Shown here: positions 1,712 to 57,788 of the stretch, piece after piece | How the letters are laid out: every line of letters begins with the position of its first letter | Numbering within the stretch: the stretch's first letter is position 1 | Program-made: the position numbers and the translations under genes | Notes under the pieces: generated by a model | The model's database searches: none | What the model was told of the DNA's origin: nothing | What the model saw: the letters and a program-made list of their open reading frames with translations, nothing else | Source of the DNA: Arthrobacter sp. Edens01 | Lineage (GTDB): Bacteria > Actinomycetota > Actinomycetes > Actinomycetales > Micrococcaceae | Reading direction: 5' to 3' | Length of the DNA: 64,000 nt | NCBI RefSeq assembly: GCF_001307035.1 | Contig: NZ_LKIU01000005.1 | Span: forward strand, 767,200 to 831,199

Positions 1712-1734
1712 AGCGGTAAAACCGGCGAGAAAAG

Positions 1735-2379
1735 CTACGCGGCCGGAACAACCTTCAGCGCAGAATTCCACTGGTAGGCGGGAAGCTCTTCGTTGGCGGA
1801 AAGCAGGATGTGCAGGAAGCCCATGTGCTCGAGCTGGCGGGCACGGCGCTGCGGGCCGACGACGACGGGATTCAGCCCTGCAGCGGAAGCGAACTCGACC
1901 ACGGCCTGGGTTGCAGCGGCGTCGTCCCCTGCGATGAGTACATCCAGCGGGTGTCCGGCAACGGTTCCGTTCGAGAGGGTGGCGGCGAAGGTTGTGTTGA
2001 AGGCCTTGACCACCTTTGCCCCAGTTGCCTTCTGCAGTTCCTCGGCCGCGGAGCTGTCAGCGGGAACGGACAGCGAATCGAAGGTTGCGAAATCCACGGG
2101 GTTGGTGATGTCCACGTACACCTTGCCGGTCAGTGCATCGCCGTACTGCTCCGCGATGGCCCGGGAGGCGTCGAAGTAGACCGCCGGAATTACCAGGGCG
2201 CCGGTGAGCTGCTCACCCAGGACTCCGGTGGTGATCTTCCCGTCCAGTTCTGCCGCGAGGGAGTCGGCCTTCGCCTTGTCCTCGTGGGCCAGGAGCTGGA
2301 CCGAACGTCCCGCTGCCACTGCTCGGGCAGCCAGCCCGCGCGCCATGTTGCCGGTACCGATGATGGTGAGATCAGTCAT
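1735..2379 (-). CDS. NADPH-dependent F420 reductase-like NAD(P)-binding protein
   Basis: A 214-residue protein starting MTDLTIIGTGNMARGLA, a Rossmann GxGxxA dinucleotide motif at the extreme N-terminus. The ITNP turn and KAFNTTFA stretch in mid-protein are typical of the F420-dependent NADP oxidoreductase-like (NADP_Rossmann, Pfam F420_oxidored) family. The ATG at 2379 is chosen over an upstream in-frame ATG because the extension (FRFPLFRKKK) is not family-like and AAAGAAG lies just upstream of 2379. It is monocistronic and sits behind a promoter overlapped by two palindromes. Its electron acceptor is not known from sequence. Confidence 0.8.
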   Translation of the reverse strand: MTDLTIIGTGNMARGLAARAVAAGRSVQLLAHEDKAKADSLAAELDGKITTGVLGEQLTGALVIPAVYFDASRAIAEQYGDALTGKVYVDITNPVDFATFDSLSVPADSSAAEELQKATGAKVVKAFNTTFAATLSNGTVAGHPLDVLIAGDDAAATQAVVEFASAAGLNPVVVGPQRRARQLEHMGFLHILLSANEELPAYQWNSALKVVPAA

Positions 2380-2462
2380 TGTCTTCTTCTTTCGAAAGAG
2401 GGGGAAACGGAAAGCCACTGGATTCTTTTCGGATAGGGGCGGCGGCGAAAACCGCCAAAAAC

Positions 2463-2505
2463 TTGAAGCTTCAACTACTATTGCACAACTTTATTGAAGC
2501 TTCAA
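2463..2505 (-). promoter_or_regulatory. Promoter flanked by two perfect 12-bp palindromic operators
   Basis: The palindrome TTGAAGCTTCAA occurs at 2463-2474 and 2494-2505, with centres 31 bp apart (three helical turns). Read on the minus strand, the distal copy supplies a -35 (TTGAAG). After 17 bp comes AATAGT (2482-2477) as -10, and the second copy covers the transcription start region. A dimeric repressor bound at both would block the reductase gene. MarR/HxlR-type regulators use such sites, but none is encoded next to this one. Confidence 0.6.
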
Positions 2506-2522
2506 CTAGTGTGGGAGTCTAG

Positions 2523-2554
2523 CCACCTAGTGAAATTGCTGTTTTACTAGGTGG
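2523..2554. promoter_or_regulatory. 9-bp inverted repeat, candidate IclR operator
   Basis: ccacctagt (2523-2531) pairs with actaggtgg (2546-2554), spacer 14 bp. It lies directly upstream of the IclR-type gene and covers the alternative GTG start at 2551, as expected of an autoregulatory site. Confidence 0.45.
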
Positions 2555-2580
2555 CAATACCGAGCGACGAAAGCAGCAGC

Positions 2581-3237
2581 ATGGCCGAGACAGCCAAGGC
2601 AGACAGCACCACCCGGACAGTTGAACGCGCGCTGTCCCTGCTCAGCGTGGTGTGCCGGCAGGGTGCGGTGACGCAGTCCGAAGCCGCCAAAGCTGCAGGC
2701 CTTTCCACCAGCACCGCGCTGCGTCTGCTCCGCACCCTGGAAGGAACCGACTTCCTGCGGCGGGAAGAGAACGGGACCTACCGCCCCGGGCCGGCGATCG
2801 TTCAGCTCGGAGTCCTCGCCCTGAGCTCCGAATCACTGATCGCCACCTACCGCGACGCGATGGACCGGATCGTGGATCAGACCGGTGAATCCACCTACCT
2901 CAGCATTCCGGCAGCGGGCGGCCACGGCCTGTACATTGCGATCTCCGAAGGCACGCAGTCCGTCCGGCACGCCAACTGGGTGGGCCGCCGGTTCGATCTG
3001 GAAACCAGTGCAGCTGGAAAGGCGATGCGCGGCGAGGTCGACGGGACCGGCTGCGCCGTGGTGAGCGACGGCGTCGAACCCGACATCACGGCCATCGCCG
3101 TGCCGCTGACCGCAGGCGGAAAAGCCGTGGCCGCCATGAGCGTCGTGGTACCCAGCTACCGCGTGACCCCCGGCCGGATCAAAGACATCAGCCAGATACT
3201 GGCCACCGAGACAGCCGCAGTCCACGCCTTCGGCTAA
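2581..3237 (+). CDS. IclR-family transcriptional regulator of the hut operon
   Basis: A 218-residue protein with an N-terminal winged helix (TVERALSLLSVVCRQGAVTQSEAAKAAGLSTS region, residues ~11-60) and a C-terminal IclR effector domain ending VVPSYR. It ends 33 bp before hutU on the same strand, so control of histidine degradation is the simplest reading; IclR-type HutR is known in corynebacteria. GTG at 2551 is an alternative start, but it lies inside an inverted repeat and neither start has a good ribosome site. The inducer is not known. Confidence 0.85.
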   Translation: MAETAKADSTTRTVERALSLLSVVCRQGAVTQSEAAKAAGLSTSTALRLLRTLEGTDFLRREENGTYRPGPAIVQLGVLALSSESLIATYRDAMDRIVDQTGESTYLSIPAAGGHGLYIAISEGTQSVRHANWVGRRFDLETSAAGKAMRGEVDGTGCAVVSDGVEPDITAIAVPLTAGGKAVAAMSVVVPSYRVTPGRIKDISQILATETAAVHAFG

Positions 3238-3270
3238 CCCACCTTCCCGACAACGACGACGGAGAACCCC

Positions 3271-4944
3271 ATGAACGAAAACACCCCGCGCACCGTCCGT
3301 GCCCCGCGCGGTACCGGCCTGAACGCCCGCAGCTGGCAGACCGAAGCGCCCCTGCGGATGCTGATGAACAACCTGGACCCCGAGGTTGCCGAACGGCCCG
3401 AGGGCCTGGTGGTCTACGGCGGCACCGGCAAGGCTGCCCGGAGCTGGGAATCCTTCGACGCGATTGTCCGCACCCTGAAGACTCTCGACGACGACGAGAC
3501 CCTCCTGGTCCAGTCCGGTAAACCCGTGGGTGTCTTCCGCACTAATGAATGGGCGCCGCGGGTACTGATCGCCAACTCCAACCTCGTGGGGGACTGGTCC
3601 ACCTGGCCCGAGTTCCGCCGGCTGGAAGCCGAAGGCCTGACTATGTACGGACAGATGACCGCCGGGTCGTGGATCTATATCGGCACCCAGGGCATCCTTC
3701 AGGGCACCTACGAGACCTTCGCTGCCATCGCGAACAAGCGGTTCGGCGGCACCCTGGCCGGCACCGCCACGCTCACCGGGGGCTGCGGCGGAATGGGCGG
3801 CGCCCAGCCGCTCGCCGTCACCCTCAACGGCGGAGCGGTACTGATTGTCGACGTCGACGAGTCCCGGCTGCAGCGCCGCGCCGGCAAACGCTACCTCGAC
3901 GACGTCGAGACCGACCTCGACGCTGCCCTCGCCAAGGTGATGGCGGCCAAGGCCGAAGGCCGGGCGCTCTCCGTGGGCCTGGTCGGCAACGCCGCGGAGG
4001 TCTTCCCCGAATTGCTCCGCCGCCGGAACGCCGGCGATGGTGCGGACTTCGACATCGTCACGGACCAGACCTCAGCGCACGATCCGCTCAGCTACCTCCC
4101 GGAAGGCATCCGCATGGAGGACTGGCACCGCGAAGCCGATGCCGATCCGGTGGGTTTCACCAAGAAGGCCCAGGCTTCCATGGCCCGGCACGTTGAAGCC
4201 ATGGTCGGGTTCCAGGACGCCGGCGCCGAGGTGTTCGACTACGGCAACTCGATCCGCGACGAAGCCCGCCAGGGCGGCTATGACCGCGCCTTCGACTTCC
4301 CCGGCTTCGTCCCCGCGTACATCCGGCCGCTGTTCTGCGAGGGCATGGGGCCGTTCCGCTGGGTGGCGCTCTCCGGCGACCCGGCGGACATCGCCGTCAC
4401 GGACGCCGCACTGAAGGAACTCTTTCCGGAAAAGCAGCACCTCCACCGCTGGCTGGACGCCGCCGCGGAACATGTCGAGTTCGAGGGCCTGCCGGCCCGG
4501 ATTTGCTGGCTGGGCTACGGAGAACGCGCCAAGGCCGGGCTGCTGTTCAACCGGCTGGTCGCCGAAGGCAAGGTGTCCGCACCGATCGTGATTGGCCGCG
4601 ACCACCTGGACTCCGGATCGGTCGCGTCGCCGTACCGGGAAACGGAGGCCATGAAGGACGGTTCCGACGCGATCGCTGACTGGCCGCTGCTCAACGCCCT
4701 GCTGAACACGTCCTCCGGTGCCACGTGGGTCTCCATCCACCACGGCGGCGGGGTTGGGATCGGCCGGTCGCTGCATGCCGGGCAGGTTTCCGTGGCGGAC
4801 GGCACCGAACTGGCCGCCCGCAAGCTCGAACGGCTGCTCACCAATGACCCGGGTACTGGGGTCATGCGGCACGTCGACGCCGGCTACGGCGAGGCGGCGC
4901 AGGTCGCCAAAGAGCGCGGCGTCCGCATCCCCATGGCCGAATAG
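3271..4944 (+). CDS. hutU: Urocanate hydratase
   Basis: A 557-residue, full-length urocanase that converts urocanate to 4-imidazolone-5-propanoate using tightly bound NAD+. The glycine-rich [11 protein letters not shown] block lies at about residue 171. The family signature [13 protein letters not shown] has its Cys near residue 412. ATG at 3271 has ACGGAGAA upstream. It is the first enzyme of the hut operon; histidine ammonia-lyase (hutH), which would make its substrate, is not in the window. Confidence 0.97.
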
Positions 4945-26841: not shown

Positions 26842-27240
26842 CTACGCGGCGGCTACGGCTTCCAGCGGTGCCCGGAGCGGGAGGTCCCTGCCCTCGAGGA
26901 TCACCTGGGCGCACTGCCAGGTCCGGGTGTTCACGATGACCGGAGCCAGCAGGTTCACGGTAGTACCGTTATCCGCCGGGTTGGCGACAACCAGGACACG
27001 GGCATCGGCCGGATCCTGCAGCCCGAGCTGAGCTGCCTGCTCATCGGAAATCTCCGGGTTGTACTCCGGGAGATAGACCGAAGCATCGATGGCGTAGAAG
27101 CGGCGGACGCCGGCCGAGGTGTCCGTCCCGGTGAGTGAATACAGACCGCTTGCACCGTCGATGTCTTCAAGTGCGAACTCGGTCAGCGGTTCAAGGCCGG
27201 GAGGGGGAGCCAGAAAGGAAACCGGCGTTACGGTGCTCAT
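26842..27240 (-). CDS. fliW: Flagellar assembly factor FliW
   Basis: A 132-residue FliW. FliW binds CsrA and flagellin in a partner-switching loop that sets flagellin translation. The conserved FAL..I, FYAIDASVYLPEYNPEISDEQ and VNLLAPVIVNTRTWQCAQVIL segments are present. Its start overlaps the flgL stop by 4 nt, and it is the last gene of the flgN-flgK-flgL-fliW unit. csrA lies at the far end of the flagellar region and the flagellin leader carries matching ANGGA motifs. Confidence 0.92.
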   Translation of the reverse strand: MSTVTPVSFLAPPPGLEPLTEFALEDIDGASGLYSLTGTDTSAGVRRFYAIDASVYLPEYNPEISDEQAAQLGLQDPADARVLVVANPADNGTTVNLLAPVIVNTRTWQCAQVILEGRDLPLRAPLEAVAAA

Positions 27241-30220: not shown

Positions 30221-30330
30221 GTGGTATGTTGCAGCTACTGCGCCAAAGTGTGGAATGAACCGGGAGACTCAGCTCCCCTCCTAGCGGTCAGCGTATTTTG
30301 TTGGGGAACAAGGACTTGGGGGTCCAAAAG

Positions 30331-31170
30331 TTGAATCGCGAAGAACGCAACCGTCTGGTTGTGGAGAACTTACCGCTGGTCGGATATCTGGTCTCAGAGG
30401 TGTGTGCCAAGGCAACGCACCTTTCCCGGGATGATCTGGCTTCGGTTGGGGCAATTGCCCTGATTACGTCCGCTGAATCTTTTAATGCGGAGCTTGGGGT
30501 GCCCTTCGGCGCCTACGCACGGCGTCGTATTGTTGGCGCTTTCGCCGACGAGATGCGCTCGAATGACTGGGCAACCCGGACAGCACGCAAGCGCATCAAG
30601 GAAACCCTTGCCGTCAAGGAAGCGCTCACTGCTGCCCTGGGCCGGTCACCGAAGGTGGACGAGATCGCTTCCGCCATGGGTGTTGACCGCACCGCCGCCG
30701 AAGACGCGCTGGCTGATGCCTCACGCACCGTCTCCCACTTGGATGACGCCGCTGCGGACTCGCTGGTGAGTGCCCTGCCCTCGCCTGAAGGATCTGCTCT
30801 CTCGGCCGAACGCATGCAGTACCTCAGGGCCGCGGTGGCTGCCCTGCCGGAGAAGATGCGCTACATCGTGGAGCAGGTCTACTTCCACGACCGCTCGGTG
30901 AAGGACCTGGCCGCCGAGCTGGGTGCCACCCACTCCGCTGTTTCACAGCAGCGCGCCGAAGCCGTCCGGCTGCTGCGTGACGGTCTGGGCACCCATTACT
31001 CAGACACGGACACTCCGGCGCCGATCGAGTCGCGGATTTCACCGGCCCGCCGGAATGCCTATCTTGCCTCAGTGGCGGAGTGGACCACGGGCGGCCTAAC
31101 CCGCCAGGATCCGCACCACGGACCCACTTTCCACGTTCCGGGACACGGGCTTAACGCTGCCGTGTCCTAG
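30331..31170 (+). CDS. fliA: Flagellar RNA polymerase sigma factor (FliA/WhiG family)
   Basis: A protein of about 279 residues with sigma-70 regions 2, 3 and 4: ENLPLVGYLVSEV and FGAYARRRIVGAFADEMRSNDW (region 2), SPKVDEIASAMGV (region 3), LPEKMRYIVEQVYFHDRSVKDLAAELG (region 4). A ~45-residue Pro/His-rich tail after region 4 is extra. The start is uncertain: TTG at 30331 (MNREERNRLV) has a G-rich site at 30318-30322 and fits the family; TTG at 30298 is the longer option. No FlgM anti-sigma gene was found nearby. Confidence 0.9.
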   Translation: MNREERNRLVVENLPLVGYLVSEVCAKATHLSRDDLASVGAIALITSAESFNAELGVPFGAYARRRIVGAFADEMRSNDWATRTARKRIKETLAVKEALTAALGRSPKVDEIASAMGVDRTAAEDALADASRTVSHLDDAAADSLVSALPSPEGSALSAERMQYLRAAVAALPEKMRYIVEQVYFHDRSVKDLAAELGATHSAVSQQRAEAVRLLRDGLGTHYSDTDTPAPIESRISPARRNAYLASVAEWTTGGLTRQDPHHGPTFHVPGHGLNAAVS

Positions 31171-31205
31171 CTCTCAAAAAACCCAAAAAATCTCTGCCGA
31201 ATTCC

Positions 31206-31232
31206 TAACACCCGTGGAATGAGGGTCGATAG
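31206..31232 (+). promoter_or_regulatory. Sigma-28-type promoter of flagellin
   Basis: TAAC (31206-31209), exactly 15 bp, GTCGATAG (31225-31232). It matches the FliA consensus with one change in each box. Transcription would start near 31239, giving a leader of about 55 nt. Confidence 0.8.
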
Positions 31233-31242
31233 CTAGGGGTAC

Positions 31243-31286
31243 AGGCCCACGGACGGGCCTCGTAGTTATCGCCCAATCACGGAGGA
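31243..31286 (+). promoter_or_regulatory. Candidate CsrA-binding leader of flagellin mRNA
   Basis: The hairpin aggccc-acggac-gggcct (31243-31260) presents ANGGA in a six-base loop. A second ANGGA (31279-31283) overlaps the Shine-Dalgarno GGAGGA (31281-31286), with the two motifs 30 nt apart. This two-site layout is what CsrA uses to block hag translation in Bacillus subtilis. Binding here is inferred. Confidence 0.65.
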
Positions 31287-31293
31287 ATTCATC

Positions 31294-32175
31294 ATGGGTT
31301 TCACAATTGCAACTAACACCTCTTCGCTCAACGCGATGCGTAACCTGACCCTGAACCAGACGGCTCAGTCCAAGTCGGTGGAGCGTCTCTCCAGCGGCCT
31401 GCGCATCAACCGTGCAGCTGACGACGCAGCCGGCCTGGCCATCTCCGAAGGTCTGAAGAACCAGATCTCCGGTCTGACCGTCGCCGGCCGCAACGCTCAG
31501 GACGGCATTAGCCTGGTCCAGACCGCTGAAGGTGCCCTGACCGAGGTCCACAACATCCTGAACCGTGTTCGTGACCTGGCTGTGCAGGCCTCGAATGATA
31601 CGAACAACGAGGATTCCCGCGGAGCAATCCAGAAGGAAATCACCGCACTTGGTTCTGAACTGGAACGTATCGCTAAGAGCACGAACTTCAACGGCATCGA
31701 CCTGCTGACCGAAGAAGCAGCCGGTGCTCCGCTGAAGATTCAGGTCGGTGCCAACGGTGGTACAACCGACGCCGCACTGAACGAGATCGAAGTCAACCTG
31801 GCTAACATTGAGGCAGTTGCTACGGCTGTCAAAGATATCGCTATTCAGACATTTACTGACGGTGCTCCGACAATGACCTCTGCTGCCAGCCAGACTGCGG
31901 CATCCGAAGCCATTGTCACGCTCGACGCGCAGATCAACAATGTCTCCACGGCCCGCGCAGATCTGGGTGCACAGCAGAACCGCCTCGAGTCCACCGCACG
32001 CTCCATCGCGGTCTCGGTCGAGAACCTCTCCGCTGCCAACTCCCGCATCCGCGACACCGACATGGCTACGGAAATGGGTAACTTCACCAAGTCCCAGATC
32101 CTGTCCAACGCTGCCACGGCAATGCTGGCCCAGGCCAACCAGATGAACTCCGGCGTTATGCAGCTCCTGCAGTAA
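31294..32175 (+). CDS. fliC: Flagellin
   Basis: A 293-residue flagellin, close to the minimum D0-D1 form. The N-terminal coil is MGFTIATNTSSLNAMRNL, with VERLSSGLRINRAADDAAGLAISE. The C-terminal coil is NSRIRDTDMATEMGNFTKSQIL, ending MQLLQ. A short variable region (~140-190) replaces the D2/D3 domains. Codon choice is more T-rich than its neighbours in places, as expected for a highly expressed gene. The Shine-Dalgarno GGAGGA is seven bases before ATG. It has its own sigma-28 promoter and a long hairpin behind it. Confidence 0.97.
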   Translation: MGFTIATNTSSLNAMRNLTLNQTAQSKSVERLSSGLRINRAADDAAGLAISEGLKNQISGLTVAGRNAQDGISLVQTAEGALTEVHNILNRVRDLAVQASNDTNNEDSRGAIQKEITALGSELERIAKSTNFNGIDLLTEEAAGAPLKIQVGANGGTTDAALNEIEVNLANIEAVATAVKDIAIQTFTDGAPTMTSAASQTAASEAIVTLDAQINNVSTARADLGAQQNRLESTARSIAVSVENLSAANSRIRDTDMATEMGNFTKSQILSNAATAMLAQANQMNSGVMQLLQ

Positions 32176-32418: not shown

Positions 32419-33759
32419 ATGGCGCTAGGCATCGACGGACTGATCAGCGGAATCGAAACTTCCGCGATGATCAAGCAGCTTATGCAGATCGAAGCACGCC
32501 CCCAGACCCTGCTCAAGAACAAGGTCTCCACCACTCAGAGTTTCGTGACGGCGCTGCAGAACCTTAACACCAAGATTGCTTCCCTGACGGAAGCTGCCGG
32601 AAAGACTGCAAAGCCCGCAGGCACGGACCTGTTCAAGGCCAGCACGACTTCGGACAAAGTCACGGCCACCACGACAGCAGGCGCTGCGGCTGGTTCCCTC
32701 GACATCTCTGTCACCCAAACCGCCACCGCTCAGGTTTCGCTCTCCGCGGCCCTGGCTGCCTGGCCGTCCAACAGCGTGCTCGCGATCTCTGCCAATGGCA
32801 CCGTTACATCGTTCGACACCACGGACAAGTCCCTGGACCAGGTGATCAGTGAGGTTAACAAAGCCAATCTTGGTGTCACGGGTGTGAAGATCGCCACCGG
32901 CAGTGTGGATGGCGTGCAGCAGTACCGGGTGCAGTTCACGGCGGCTAAGACCGGCTCCGAAGGCGCCTTCACGGCCAGCCTGGGCGGCACAGACATGGAC
33001 GTCCTCAAACCGGCCCAGGACGCGAAGCTGACCCTCTGGGCAGGAACGCCGGCCGCGCAGGAAATCACCTCGTCTACCAACACGTTCAAGGCACTTATGC
33101 CGGGTGTAGACGTGACCCTTGCCGTGGACACCCCTGCCAATACCGCCTTGACCATCAAAGTTGCCAGGGATGACGAAGCGATCTCCAAGGTTGCCTCGGA
33201 TCTCGTGGCGAGCCTGGCCGATGCCTTCGCCTACATCAACCGCAACAGTGCCGTTACCGTGTCCACATCCTCGGGCAACACGGCCGCTTCCGGTGGCGTC
33301 TTCACCGGCGATGCGGGCATCCGGGACATCAAGCGCCAGATCATGGAAGCCGCCACTTCACCGGTGGACGGCCGGTCGCCGTCGGAAATCGGCGTGGTGA
33401 TCACCAAGGACGGCACCGTTGAGTTCGATGCGGAAAAGTTCGCCGCAGCAATGGCAGCAGACCCGACTAAGACGCAGGAAACGCTGCAGACTATTGCCGG
33501 GCGTGTTGAGGCGGCCGGCAAGGTTGCCTCCGACAAGTACGACGGCCTGCTTACCCAGCGCATCACGGGCCAGGAATCGACTATCCGGTCCCTGAACACC
33601 CAGATCGAAGACTGGGACCGCCGGCTGGCCAGCCGTGAGTCCACCCTGAAAATGATCTGGGGCAACCTCGAGGTCAAACTCAGCCAGCTGCAGAGCCAGC
33701 AGGACTGGCTAACCGGCCAGCTCGCCTCGCTGAACACCTCCAGCTCAGGAAAGAAGTGA
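32419..33759 (+). CDS. fliD: Flagellar hook-associated protein 2 (filament cap)
   Basis: A 446-residue FliD. The N-terminal ALGIDGLISGIETSAMIKQLMQIEARPQ segment is the classic FliD start, and the C-terminal coil (SRESTLKMIWGNLEVKLSQLQSQQDWLTGQLASL) anchors the cap. It promotes flagellin polymerisation at the filament tip. ACAAGGAGC precedes the ATG. It is the first gene of fliD-fliS-fliT-like. Confidence 0.95.
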   Translation: MALGIDGLISGIETSAMIKQLMQIEARPQTLLKNKVSTTQSFVTALQNLNTKIASLTEAAGKTAKPAGTDLFKASTTSDKVTATTTAGAAAGSLDISVTQTATAQVSLSAALAAWPSNSVLAISANGTVTSFDTTDKSLDQVISEVNKANLGVTGVKIATGSVDGVQQYRVQFTAAKTGSEGAFTASLGGTDMDVLKPAQDAKLTLWAGTPAAQEITSSTNTFKALMPGVDVTLAVDTPANTALTIKVARDDEAISKVASDLVASLADAFAYINRNSAVTVSTSSGNTAASGGVFTGDAGIRDIKRQIMEAATSPVDGRSPSEIGVVITKDGTVEFDAEKFAAAMAADPTKTQETLQTIAGRVEAAGKVASDKYDGLLTQRITGQESTIRSLNTQIEDWDRRLASRESTLKMIWGNLEVKLSQLQSQQDWLTGQLASLNTSSSGKK

Positions 33760-33761
33760 CC

Positions 33762-34196
33762 GTGAGCTACGGGCTGCAGGCCAAGCGCGCCGAATTCATC
33801 CGCGATGCCGTGATGTCGGCGTCGCCCGTGCGGCTGCTGACCATGCTGTACGACCGGATGCTGCTGGATCTCAACCGCGCTGAAGCGGCTCAGCAGGCGG
33901 GCAACTGGAACGCTGCGTCCGAGCAGCTGATCCACGCCCAGAGCATCGTAGCCGAGCTCAGCGGCACGCTGAAGGTCGACGAGTGGGAGGGCGGCGAGAA
34001 CCTCCAGGCGATGTACGGCTACGTCATGAAGGCGATGGTGGAAGCCAACCTGCAGCACAGCGCCGCGATGACCCGGGAGTGCATCAACCTGCTCGAACCG
34101 CTCCGCGCGGCCTGGCACGAAGCTGCCGCCCAGCTGCCCGCCCAGGCGCCAGCCGCCGGACCAACAGGAACCGGCGGTACCCTCGGTGTCGGCTGA
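33762..34196 (+). CDS. fliS: Flagellin export chaperone FliS
   Basis: A 144-residue four-helix chaperone (MSYGLQAKRAEFIRDAVMSASPVRLLTMLYDRMLLDLNRAE), matching the FliS family start and the TMLYDRMLLDL core. It keeps flagellin unpolymerised before export. GTG at 33762 is preferred because AGGAAAG (33747-33753) is 8 bases away; GTG at 33756, overlapping the fliD stop, is the alternative. Confidence 0.92.
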   Translation: MSYGLQAKRAEFIRDAVMSASPVRLLTMLYDRMLLDLNRAEAAQQAGNWNAASEQLIHAQSIVAELSGTLKVDEWEGGENLQAMYGYVMKAMVEANLQHSAAMTRECINLLEPLRAAWHEAAAQLPAQAPAAGPTGTGGTLGVG

Positions 34197-34530
34197 ACCA
34201 GCAGAAGAGTACCTGACTCCGCACCAGGAGAACCTGGAACGCTGGGATGAAGTCCTCACCCAGCTGGAGGACAACCTGGTGGCTTTTATGGACGGAACCA
34301 CCGTCCTGGACCAGGCCCGCACAGTAGCCAGCGCGTGGCATCCGCCGCATGAGCTGGGCCCGCTGCCCGCCGAGCTCGCCACCCGCGCCCGGCTGCTTTC
34401 AATGGCGCAGCAGCGTGCCTACGCCCAGCTGCGCAGCGAATCCAGAATGATTCGGCAGCAGGCGGAACTTATTCGCAGCGTCCCAAGCGCATCATCCGGC
34501 GGAGCGGTCTACCTCGACGTCGCGGGCTGA
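34186..34530 (+). CDS. FliT-like flagellar protein (114 aa)
   Basis: A helical protein (HQENLERWDEVLTQLEDNLVAFM ... RARLLSMAQQRAYAQLRSESRMIRQQAELIRSV) in the fliT position directly after fliS, overlapping it by 11 nt. Sequence similarity to enterobacterial FliT is not evident by eye, so the chaperone role rests on gene order and helical content. The GTG start has a distant AGGAA. Confidence 0.7.
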   Translation: MSAEPAEEYLTPHQENLERWDEVLTQLEDNLVAFMDGTTVLDQARTVASAWHPPHELGPLPAELATRARLLSMAQQRAYAQLRSESRMIRQQAELIRSVPSASSGGAVYLDVAG

Positions 34531-57542: not shown

Positions 57543-57788
57543 ATGCTCGTGCTAACGCGGAAATCAGGAGAGCAGATCCTGATCGGTGATGACATTGTCA
57601 TTACCGTGCTCGATTCGCGGGGCGACGGTGTCCGAATTGGCATTGATGCACCCCGCGGAATGAAAATCCAGCGCAATGAAGTTGTCCGCGCTGTCGAAGA
57701 AGCCAACGTTGCGGCAGCCACGCCTTCCCCCGACGGCGAAGAGCGAATCAAAGCGCTCCTGGAACTGCGCCGGCCGCAGGCCGACTAG
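57543..57788 (+). CDS. csrA: Carbon storage regulator/translational repressor CsrA
   Basis: An 81-residue CsrA. The RNA-binding core is MLVLTRKSGEQILIGDDIVITVLDSRGDGVRIGIDAPRGMKIQRNEVV; the two RNA-contact strands and the conserved Arg are intact. A C-terminal extension (PSPDGEERIKALLELRRPQAD) resembles the tail that FliW contacts in Gram-positives. It is the last gene of the flagellar region. The likely target is the flagellin leader at 31243-31286. Confidence 0.95.
   Translation: MLVLTRKSGEQILIGDDIVITVLDSRGDGVRIGIDAPRGMKIQRNEVVRAVEEANVAAATPSPDGEERIKALLELRRPQAD

Follow-up and report, generated by a model that had tools for sequence, protein, structure and literature searches.

The flagellin gene of Arthrobacter sp. 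Edens01 very probably carries a two-site CsrA-type translational operator in its sigma-28-dependent leader, where CsrA would repress synthesis and FliW would relieve the repression. The window analyzed here is the whole stretch of 64,000 nucleotides (64 kb) from contig NZ_LKIU01000005.1. Two ANGGA motifs lie in the leader, and this motif pair is real and correct to the base. An earlier note on this DNA had described a sigma-28 site, a perfect 6-bp hairpin with an ANGGA loop, and a Shine-Dalgarno (SD) ANGGA 30 nt further on; each of these coordinates proved exact. The proposal is based on several findings: both sites and the way they are conserved and covary, the presence and joint occurrence of the genes, the residues kept in CsrA, and the one strong match in each genome scanned. 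The relevant features are as follows.

26842..27240, minus strand: fliW, 132 aa (PF02623, E=7.9e-21), the last gene after flgN, flgK, and flgL.
30298..31170, plus strand: sigma factor gene (PF04542, PF04545, PF08281) directly upstream of flagellin, likely FliA/sigma-28.
31206..31232, plus strand: sigma-28-type flagellin promoter, TAAC-N15-GTCGATAG, with TAAC at 31206-31209 and GTCGATAG at 31225-31232, read directly.
31243..31260, plus strand: upstream candidate CsrA site, a 6-bp stem with hexaloop ACGGAC, seen in the sequence and conserved and covarying.
31279..31283, plus strand: second candidate CsrA site, ACGGA, overlapping the SD sequence CACGGAGGAA.
31294..32175, plus strand: flagellin gene, 293 aa (PF00669, E=4.5e-44; PF00700, E=1.2e-23), the proposed regulated gene.
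33756..34196, plus strand: fliS, flagellin chaperone gene (PF02561, E=1.3e-29), in the flagellin gene block.
57543..57788, plus strand: csrA, 81 aa (PF02599, E=1.2e-23).

On the minus strand the gene order is flgN-flgK-flgL-fliW; the plus strand carries, in order, the sigma factor gene, flagellin, fliD, and fliS. Pfam identified flgN, fliS, fliW, flagellin, and the sigma factor gene; flgL was recognized via PF00669, and flgK and fliD were assigned by eye. The start of fliW overlaps the stop of flgL (27237-27240). The csrA and fliW genes named in the earlier note were found at exactly the positions given, and their identities were borne out by PF02599 and PF02623. To place them in the same locus was generous: both are in the window, but csrA lies about 30 kb from fliW on the opposite strand. 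No evident SD sequence was seen by eye before the csrA start at 57543, which might keep CsrA scarce. Just past fliS, a 114-aa ORF (34186-34527, plus strand) had no Pfam match, and its position suggests a FliT-like chaperone. The closest named relatives of the flagellin were eight Arthrobacter loci with 68-81% identity (A. citreus, 81%), followed by Modestobacter at 52%. A search for near-identical plasmid copies gave one flagellin match, at 78%.

By analogy with B. subtilis and C. jejuni, CsrA would bind this leader and repress it, FliW would release it, and flagellin synthesis would be coupled to export. A CsrA dimer would set one RNA-binding face on the hexaloop hairpin and the other on the SD ACGGA, and the bridging dimer would block ribosomes on the flagellin mRNA. 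Unexported flagellin would hold FliW, and FliW not so held would bind CsrA near N55 and the C-terminal extension. FliW-bound CsrA would then leave the mRNA, and flagellin would be made only during its export.

The window CsrA has 81 aa compared with 53 positions in the Pfam domain, and its homologues have 77-109 aa, which amounts to a C-terminal extension. Together with the presence of N55, this agrees with the FliW-responsive type that the earlier note had ascribed to the extension. Residues L4, R6, R44, and N55 were present in 20/20 aligned CsrA sequences, the window sequence included (21 were tried, and one was left out). Of these, L4 and R44 are RNA-contact residues. In the published passages on the substitutions N55D in B. 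subtilis and N55A in C. jejuni, N55 is required for FliW binding. Among PDB sequences, the window CsrA was closest to the Geobacillus CsrA in 5dmb, an entry that also contains a FliW chain.

FliW was detected in 96/295 Micrococcaceae genomes (17/32 genera) and CsrA over the cut-off in 95/295, with both in 95. The genome with FliW only is 82% complete (G029). Another genome had no FliW match and, in place of CsrA, a sub-threshold remnant interrupted by a stop, and a further genome had three CsrA matches over the cut-off. Among the flagellates of the phylum draw, 56/57 had CsrA and 55/57 had FliW; in the order draw (Actinomycetales), the corresponding counts were 69/72 and 70/72. The four genomes that gave no CsrA match were all drafts in 70 to 1060 contigs, and three leaders were read from them. 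No well-assembled flagellate clearly without CsrA, which would serve as a natural negative control, was found among the sampled genomes.

Gene arrangement was compared as well; for the order this covered genomes in which a single contig carries both genes, and the nearer copy was taken where csrA was present twice. In the order, fliW and csrA were on the same strand within 120 nt in 15/61 genomes and more than 25 kb apart in 42/61. Elsewhere in the phylum, they were on the same strand within 300 nt in 44/50 genomes.

An unlikely alternative, although the likeliest of those considered, is that CsrA represses as proposed and that in this order the mRNA is freed by something other than FliW or in addition to it; CsrA could be titrated by the plentiful flagellin leader, or another protein or an sRNA could act. 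The uncoupling of fliW and csrA fits this alternative, as does the divergence of the window FliW, which matched PDB sequences (2aj7, 5dmb/5dmd/5jak) only at E about 1e-5. In addition, the flaA mRNA of C. jejuni itself titrates CsrA, as described in part of PMC4894983. Two genomes, G839 (99% complete) and G674, had CsrA and no FliW match, and G839 keeps both leader sites; their FliW may be divergent and hence missed. FliW scores were also weak in several relatives of G839 in family f81. The joint presence of FliW and CsrA in 95 Micrococcaceae genomes, with one incomplete FliW-only genome and one CsrA remnant as the exceptions, argues against this alternative, and so does the FliW-contact residue N55, kept in every aligned CsrA. 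Release of CsrA by FliW is the preferred reading.

The region 31206..31232 was called sigma-28-like by comparison with the sigma-28 consensus. The hairpin at 31243-31260 reads AGGCCC-ACGGAC-GGGCCT, and 6/6 of its pairs are Watson-Crick. The two ANGGA motifs are 30 nt apart, start to start, and the flagellin ATG is at 31294. The hairpin alone (18 nt) gave a folding z of -3.0. The folding energy of the whole leader was unremarkable (z -1.14 and -0.90) and was dropped as evidence, being uninformative. When the Rfam 15 models were compared with 31100-31500, none was over threshold, and the one sub-threshold match (31396-31473, E 1.1) lay within the gene in opposite orientation. On both strands of the window, 473 ANGGA sites were counted; three of the 473 form hexaloops closed by at least five contiguous pairs, and only the one in the flagellin leader is followed by another ANGGA ahead of a start codon. 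The decisive support for the leader element is comparative and does not come from single-sequence folding.

Conservation was analyzed in fliW-adjacent stretches from 95 other Micrococcaceae genomes. A flagellin start was present in 91 of them, which gave 95 leaders including that of the window. Four fliW loci without a flagellin start, two of them contig ends, were left out, as were, by hand, nine FlgL starts among the second hits. Start codons were picked from alignments, taking the closest start in frame. Both ANGGA motifs were present in 95/95 leaders, with the upstream one 30-65 nt upstream and a spacing of 28-38 nt. The SD motif was TCACGGAGGA in 86/95 leaders and TCATGGAGGA in 9/95. In three loci with tandem flagellin genes, the two-site leader was seen on both copies.

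The stem was conserved as well. When the best upstream site was taken, at least 5/7 flanking pairs formed in 95/95 family leaders and at least 6/7 in 84/95; when the site was chosen by position only, the counts were 88/95 and 82/95. As background in the relatives' loci, 8.0% of 8189 ANGGA sites reached at least 5/7 pairs and 1.7% at least 6/7. At least five contiguous hexaloop pairs were found at 69/8204 other ANGGA sites (0.84%) and at least six at 26 (0.32%). A CCGAT/TCGAT-type -10 sequence precedes the stem by 16-18 nt in 89/95 leaders, by exactly 17 nt in 73, and the pattern was not found in 6/95. Because the -10 sequence sits at this distance, the hairpin probably forms the extreme 5' end of the flagellin transcript.

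Flagellin was found in 84/297 genomes of the order. The 77 further order leaders contained the upstream ANGGA in 77/77 and the SD motif in 73/77. For the best upstream site, at least 5/7 pairs formed in 67/77, and the other 10/77 fell short, some by a single mismatch; by position only, at least 5/7 pairs formed in 63/77 and at least 6/7 in 54/77. The spacing of the two sites in the order had a median of 30 nt and a range of 24-40.

Stem arms are interchangeable among these leaders, for example AGGCCC/GGGCCT, AGGTCC/GGACCT, and CAGGCC/GGCCTG. In 138 distinct hairpins of the order, obtained after two misregistered hairpins had been swapped for one corrected row, both sides had changed in 8/9 stem pairs. 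The covariation score of the 138 hairpins was 0.422, compared with 0.158 +/- 0.012 for shuffles, of which 0/500 were as high, and with 0.060-0.158 for slid registers. Relatedness can inflate covariation, and therefore one leader per genus was drawn (46 genera, 50 draws) and scored more strictly, using only sequence pairs that differ on both sides. The mean was 0.415 and the lowest value 0.373; 2000 shuffles had a mean of 0.106 and a highest value of 0.174. Thus, the A.GGA loop persisted in 46 genera of the order, and the covariation of its stem was far higher than in shuffles. An invariant loop on a freely changing stem is a signature that points to protein recognition. The earlier note had proposed to look for conserved ANGGA positions among relatives with csrA and for compensatory stem changes. 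The former were found in all family leaders, which leaves the claim unrefuted, and many of the latter were found across the order.

It was also considered that CsrA is uninvolved, the 5' hairpin serving only to stabilize the mRNA or as a standby structure and the SD motif being simply a good ribosome-binding site. The fixed register of the hairpin after the promoter is what a 5'-end stabilizer would show, and ANGGA readily arises in strong SD sequences, where it is partly expected since AAGGAGG contains it. However, a stabilizer requires the stem and not an A.GGA loop held constant while the stem changes. The SD motif itself was compared with 115 other GGAGG-type SD sequences from the same loci, whose ORFs were called mechanically. 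A[C/T] stood directly before GGAGG in 16/115 (14%) of these versus 95/95 flagellin leaders. Given also that CsrA occurs in nearly every sampled flagellate, a role without CsrA is very improbable. That the motif arose by chance in GC-rich sequence is hardly credible despite the frequency of ANGGA in the window, being refuted by the 95/95 conservation and by covariation over 46 genera above all shuffles. The background rate of comparable hairpins, 0.3-3%, also speaks against chance.

The proposed two-site CsrA operator was assessed for specificity with a leader covariance model, R1, built from 66 leaders, each with at least 5/7 pairs, out of 101 non-redundant ones. With filters off, R1 scored the flagellin leader at 57.4 bits in the window, and nothing else exceeded 9.6 bits. 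In the own genome, flagellin scored 57.5 bits and the next best match 18.0 bits. Ten genomes were scanned, with 150 first-look candidates scored per genome out of 1712-3485, and each had one strong match, located at flagellin (10/10) and scoring 53.8-61.7 bits; the next best anywhere was 22.7. Further full-leader CsrA targets in the window or the ten genomes were rejected, with none above 22.7 bits among the 150 candidates per genome. By this search, the complete two-site leader appears specific to flagellin; weaker, single-site, or differently arranged CsrA targets are possible. The model can be used for finding similar leaders.

FlgM (PF04316), the anti-sigma factor that usually acts as checkpoint on late genes, was searched for in the same order, with E. 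coli, B. subtilis, and T. maritima as controls, all of which were positive. None of 53 order genomes, the own genome included, had FlgM over the cut-off, and one sub-threshold match had E=0.0996. Outside the order, 9/27 genomes had FlgM over the cut-off. Passages of two papers are in line with this: FlgM is described as missing from later-branching classes (PMC10746217), and its absence from four genomes was noted in 2008 (PMC2587704). We suggest only tentatively, and with more doubt than confidence, that in this order, where FlgM was not detected, the CsrA leader could be the sole export-coupled flagellin checkpoint, with CsrA a near-dedicated regulator of a single target. The features that could speak for such a dedicated CsrA, a reading we favor no more strongly, are one leader per genome, a fixed 5' hairpin, an open SD, a spacing of about 30 nt, and a separate fliW operon. 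For a lineage without detectable FlgM, the matching of flagellin synthesis to export becomes a specific, testable hypothesis.

The system was compared with hag/FliW/CsrA of B. subtilis (Yakhnin 2007 and Mukherjee 2011/2016, as cited in passages of PMC7652899 and PMC6529632). Both have two leader CsrA sites with one on the SD, FliW, and an extended CsrA C-terminus with N55. In B. subtilis, fliW and csrA are in tandem and translationally coupled, and this arrangement and coupling help to set the protein ratio according to a section of PMC6529632, whereas in the window the genes lie on opposite strands, separated by 30 kb. The same section has FlgM and CsrA acting jointly and names CsrA as the dominant inhibitor of flagellin accumulation (PMC6529632), whereas FlgM was not found in the 53 genomes of the order. 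A further difference from Bacillus is that in the order the sites are about 30 nt apart and the SD site is open. The Bacillus-type hag-FliW-CsrA loop named in the earlier note is supported by the motifs, the covariation, N55, and the C-terminus, and its wiring differs, with fliW and csrA uncoupled and FlgM not found.

The flaA leader of C. jejuni, where CsrA represses and FliW relieves, likewise has ANGGA in a hexaloop and at the ribosome-binding site, with compensatory changes, as described in part of PMC4894983. Its two sites are both in stem-loops and 21 nt apart according to the same part, whereas here the SD site mostly has 2-3 closing pairs (84/91 family leaders) and the distance is about 30 nt. 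Lachnospiraceae-type leaders also combine a hexaloop ANGGA hairpin (at least four contiguous pairs) with an SD ANGGA, in 40/57 cases. For this set, 7/64 loci were skipped (three duplicates and four without a usable start or upstream region), and three more loci, whose origin was different or unclear, were left out. Their spacing was 20-27 nt in 38/40 (median 23), 20-28 in 39, and 45 in one, compared with a median of 30 in the order of the window.

Within the Actinobacteria, Kineococcus radiotolerans resembles the present case, with csrA in a motility island and a proposed CsrA site on the SD, 9/12 bases of which match hag BS2 (part of PMC2587704). The Life cycle section of that paper gives this proposal for one species, without an upstream hairpin, FliW, or covariation. 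Zere 2015 listed Actinobacteria among the phyla that may use FliW, and a passage of PMC9019756 places adjacent fliW and csrA among phoP-affected genes of Actinosynnema. The earlier note had held that the loop deserves a test in an actinobacterium with this spacing; CsrA control of actinobacterial flagellin had already been proposed for Kineococcus in 2008, and the hairpin and its covariation are what is added here. No description of an actinobacterial upstream hairpin or its covariation was found in open-licence PMC papers. Specialists would expect leader control in outline, and strong support is now added; base-pair covariation places a probable hag-type flagellin switch firmly in the Actinomycetota.

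Elsewhere in the phylum, flagellin was found in 58/396 genomes, and 58 leaders were read, 53 from the draw and five from named loci. The upstream site was present in 36/58, a stem of at least four contiguous pairs in 22/58, and the SD motif in 54/58. The SD motif formed a hairpin loop with at least four pairs in 20/58 of these leaders, versus 5/77 in the order and 7/91 in the family. These results point to two arrangements in one phylum, an upstream hairpin with an open SD in the order and an SD site in its own hairpin in several clades. In family f22, the SD ANGGA was a hairpin loop with 4-6 closing pairs in 8/8 leaders, and in family f16 with 3-4 closing pairs in 6/6; both clades are mostly without the upstream hairpin. 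Modestobacter had both the hairpin and the SD site. Four genomes had 4-6 flagellin matches in a row. The leader of one genome (G355) had tandem ANGGA hexaloop hairpins, GGCACGCC[ACGGAC]GGCGTGCC and GTCCC[ACGGAC]GGGAC, before the SD site, giving three candidate CsrA sites in total.
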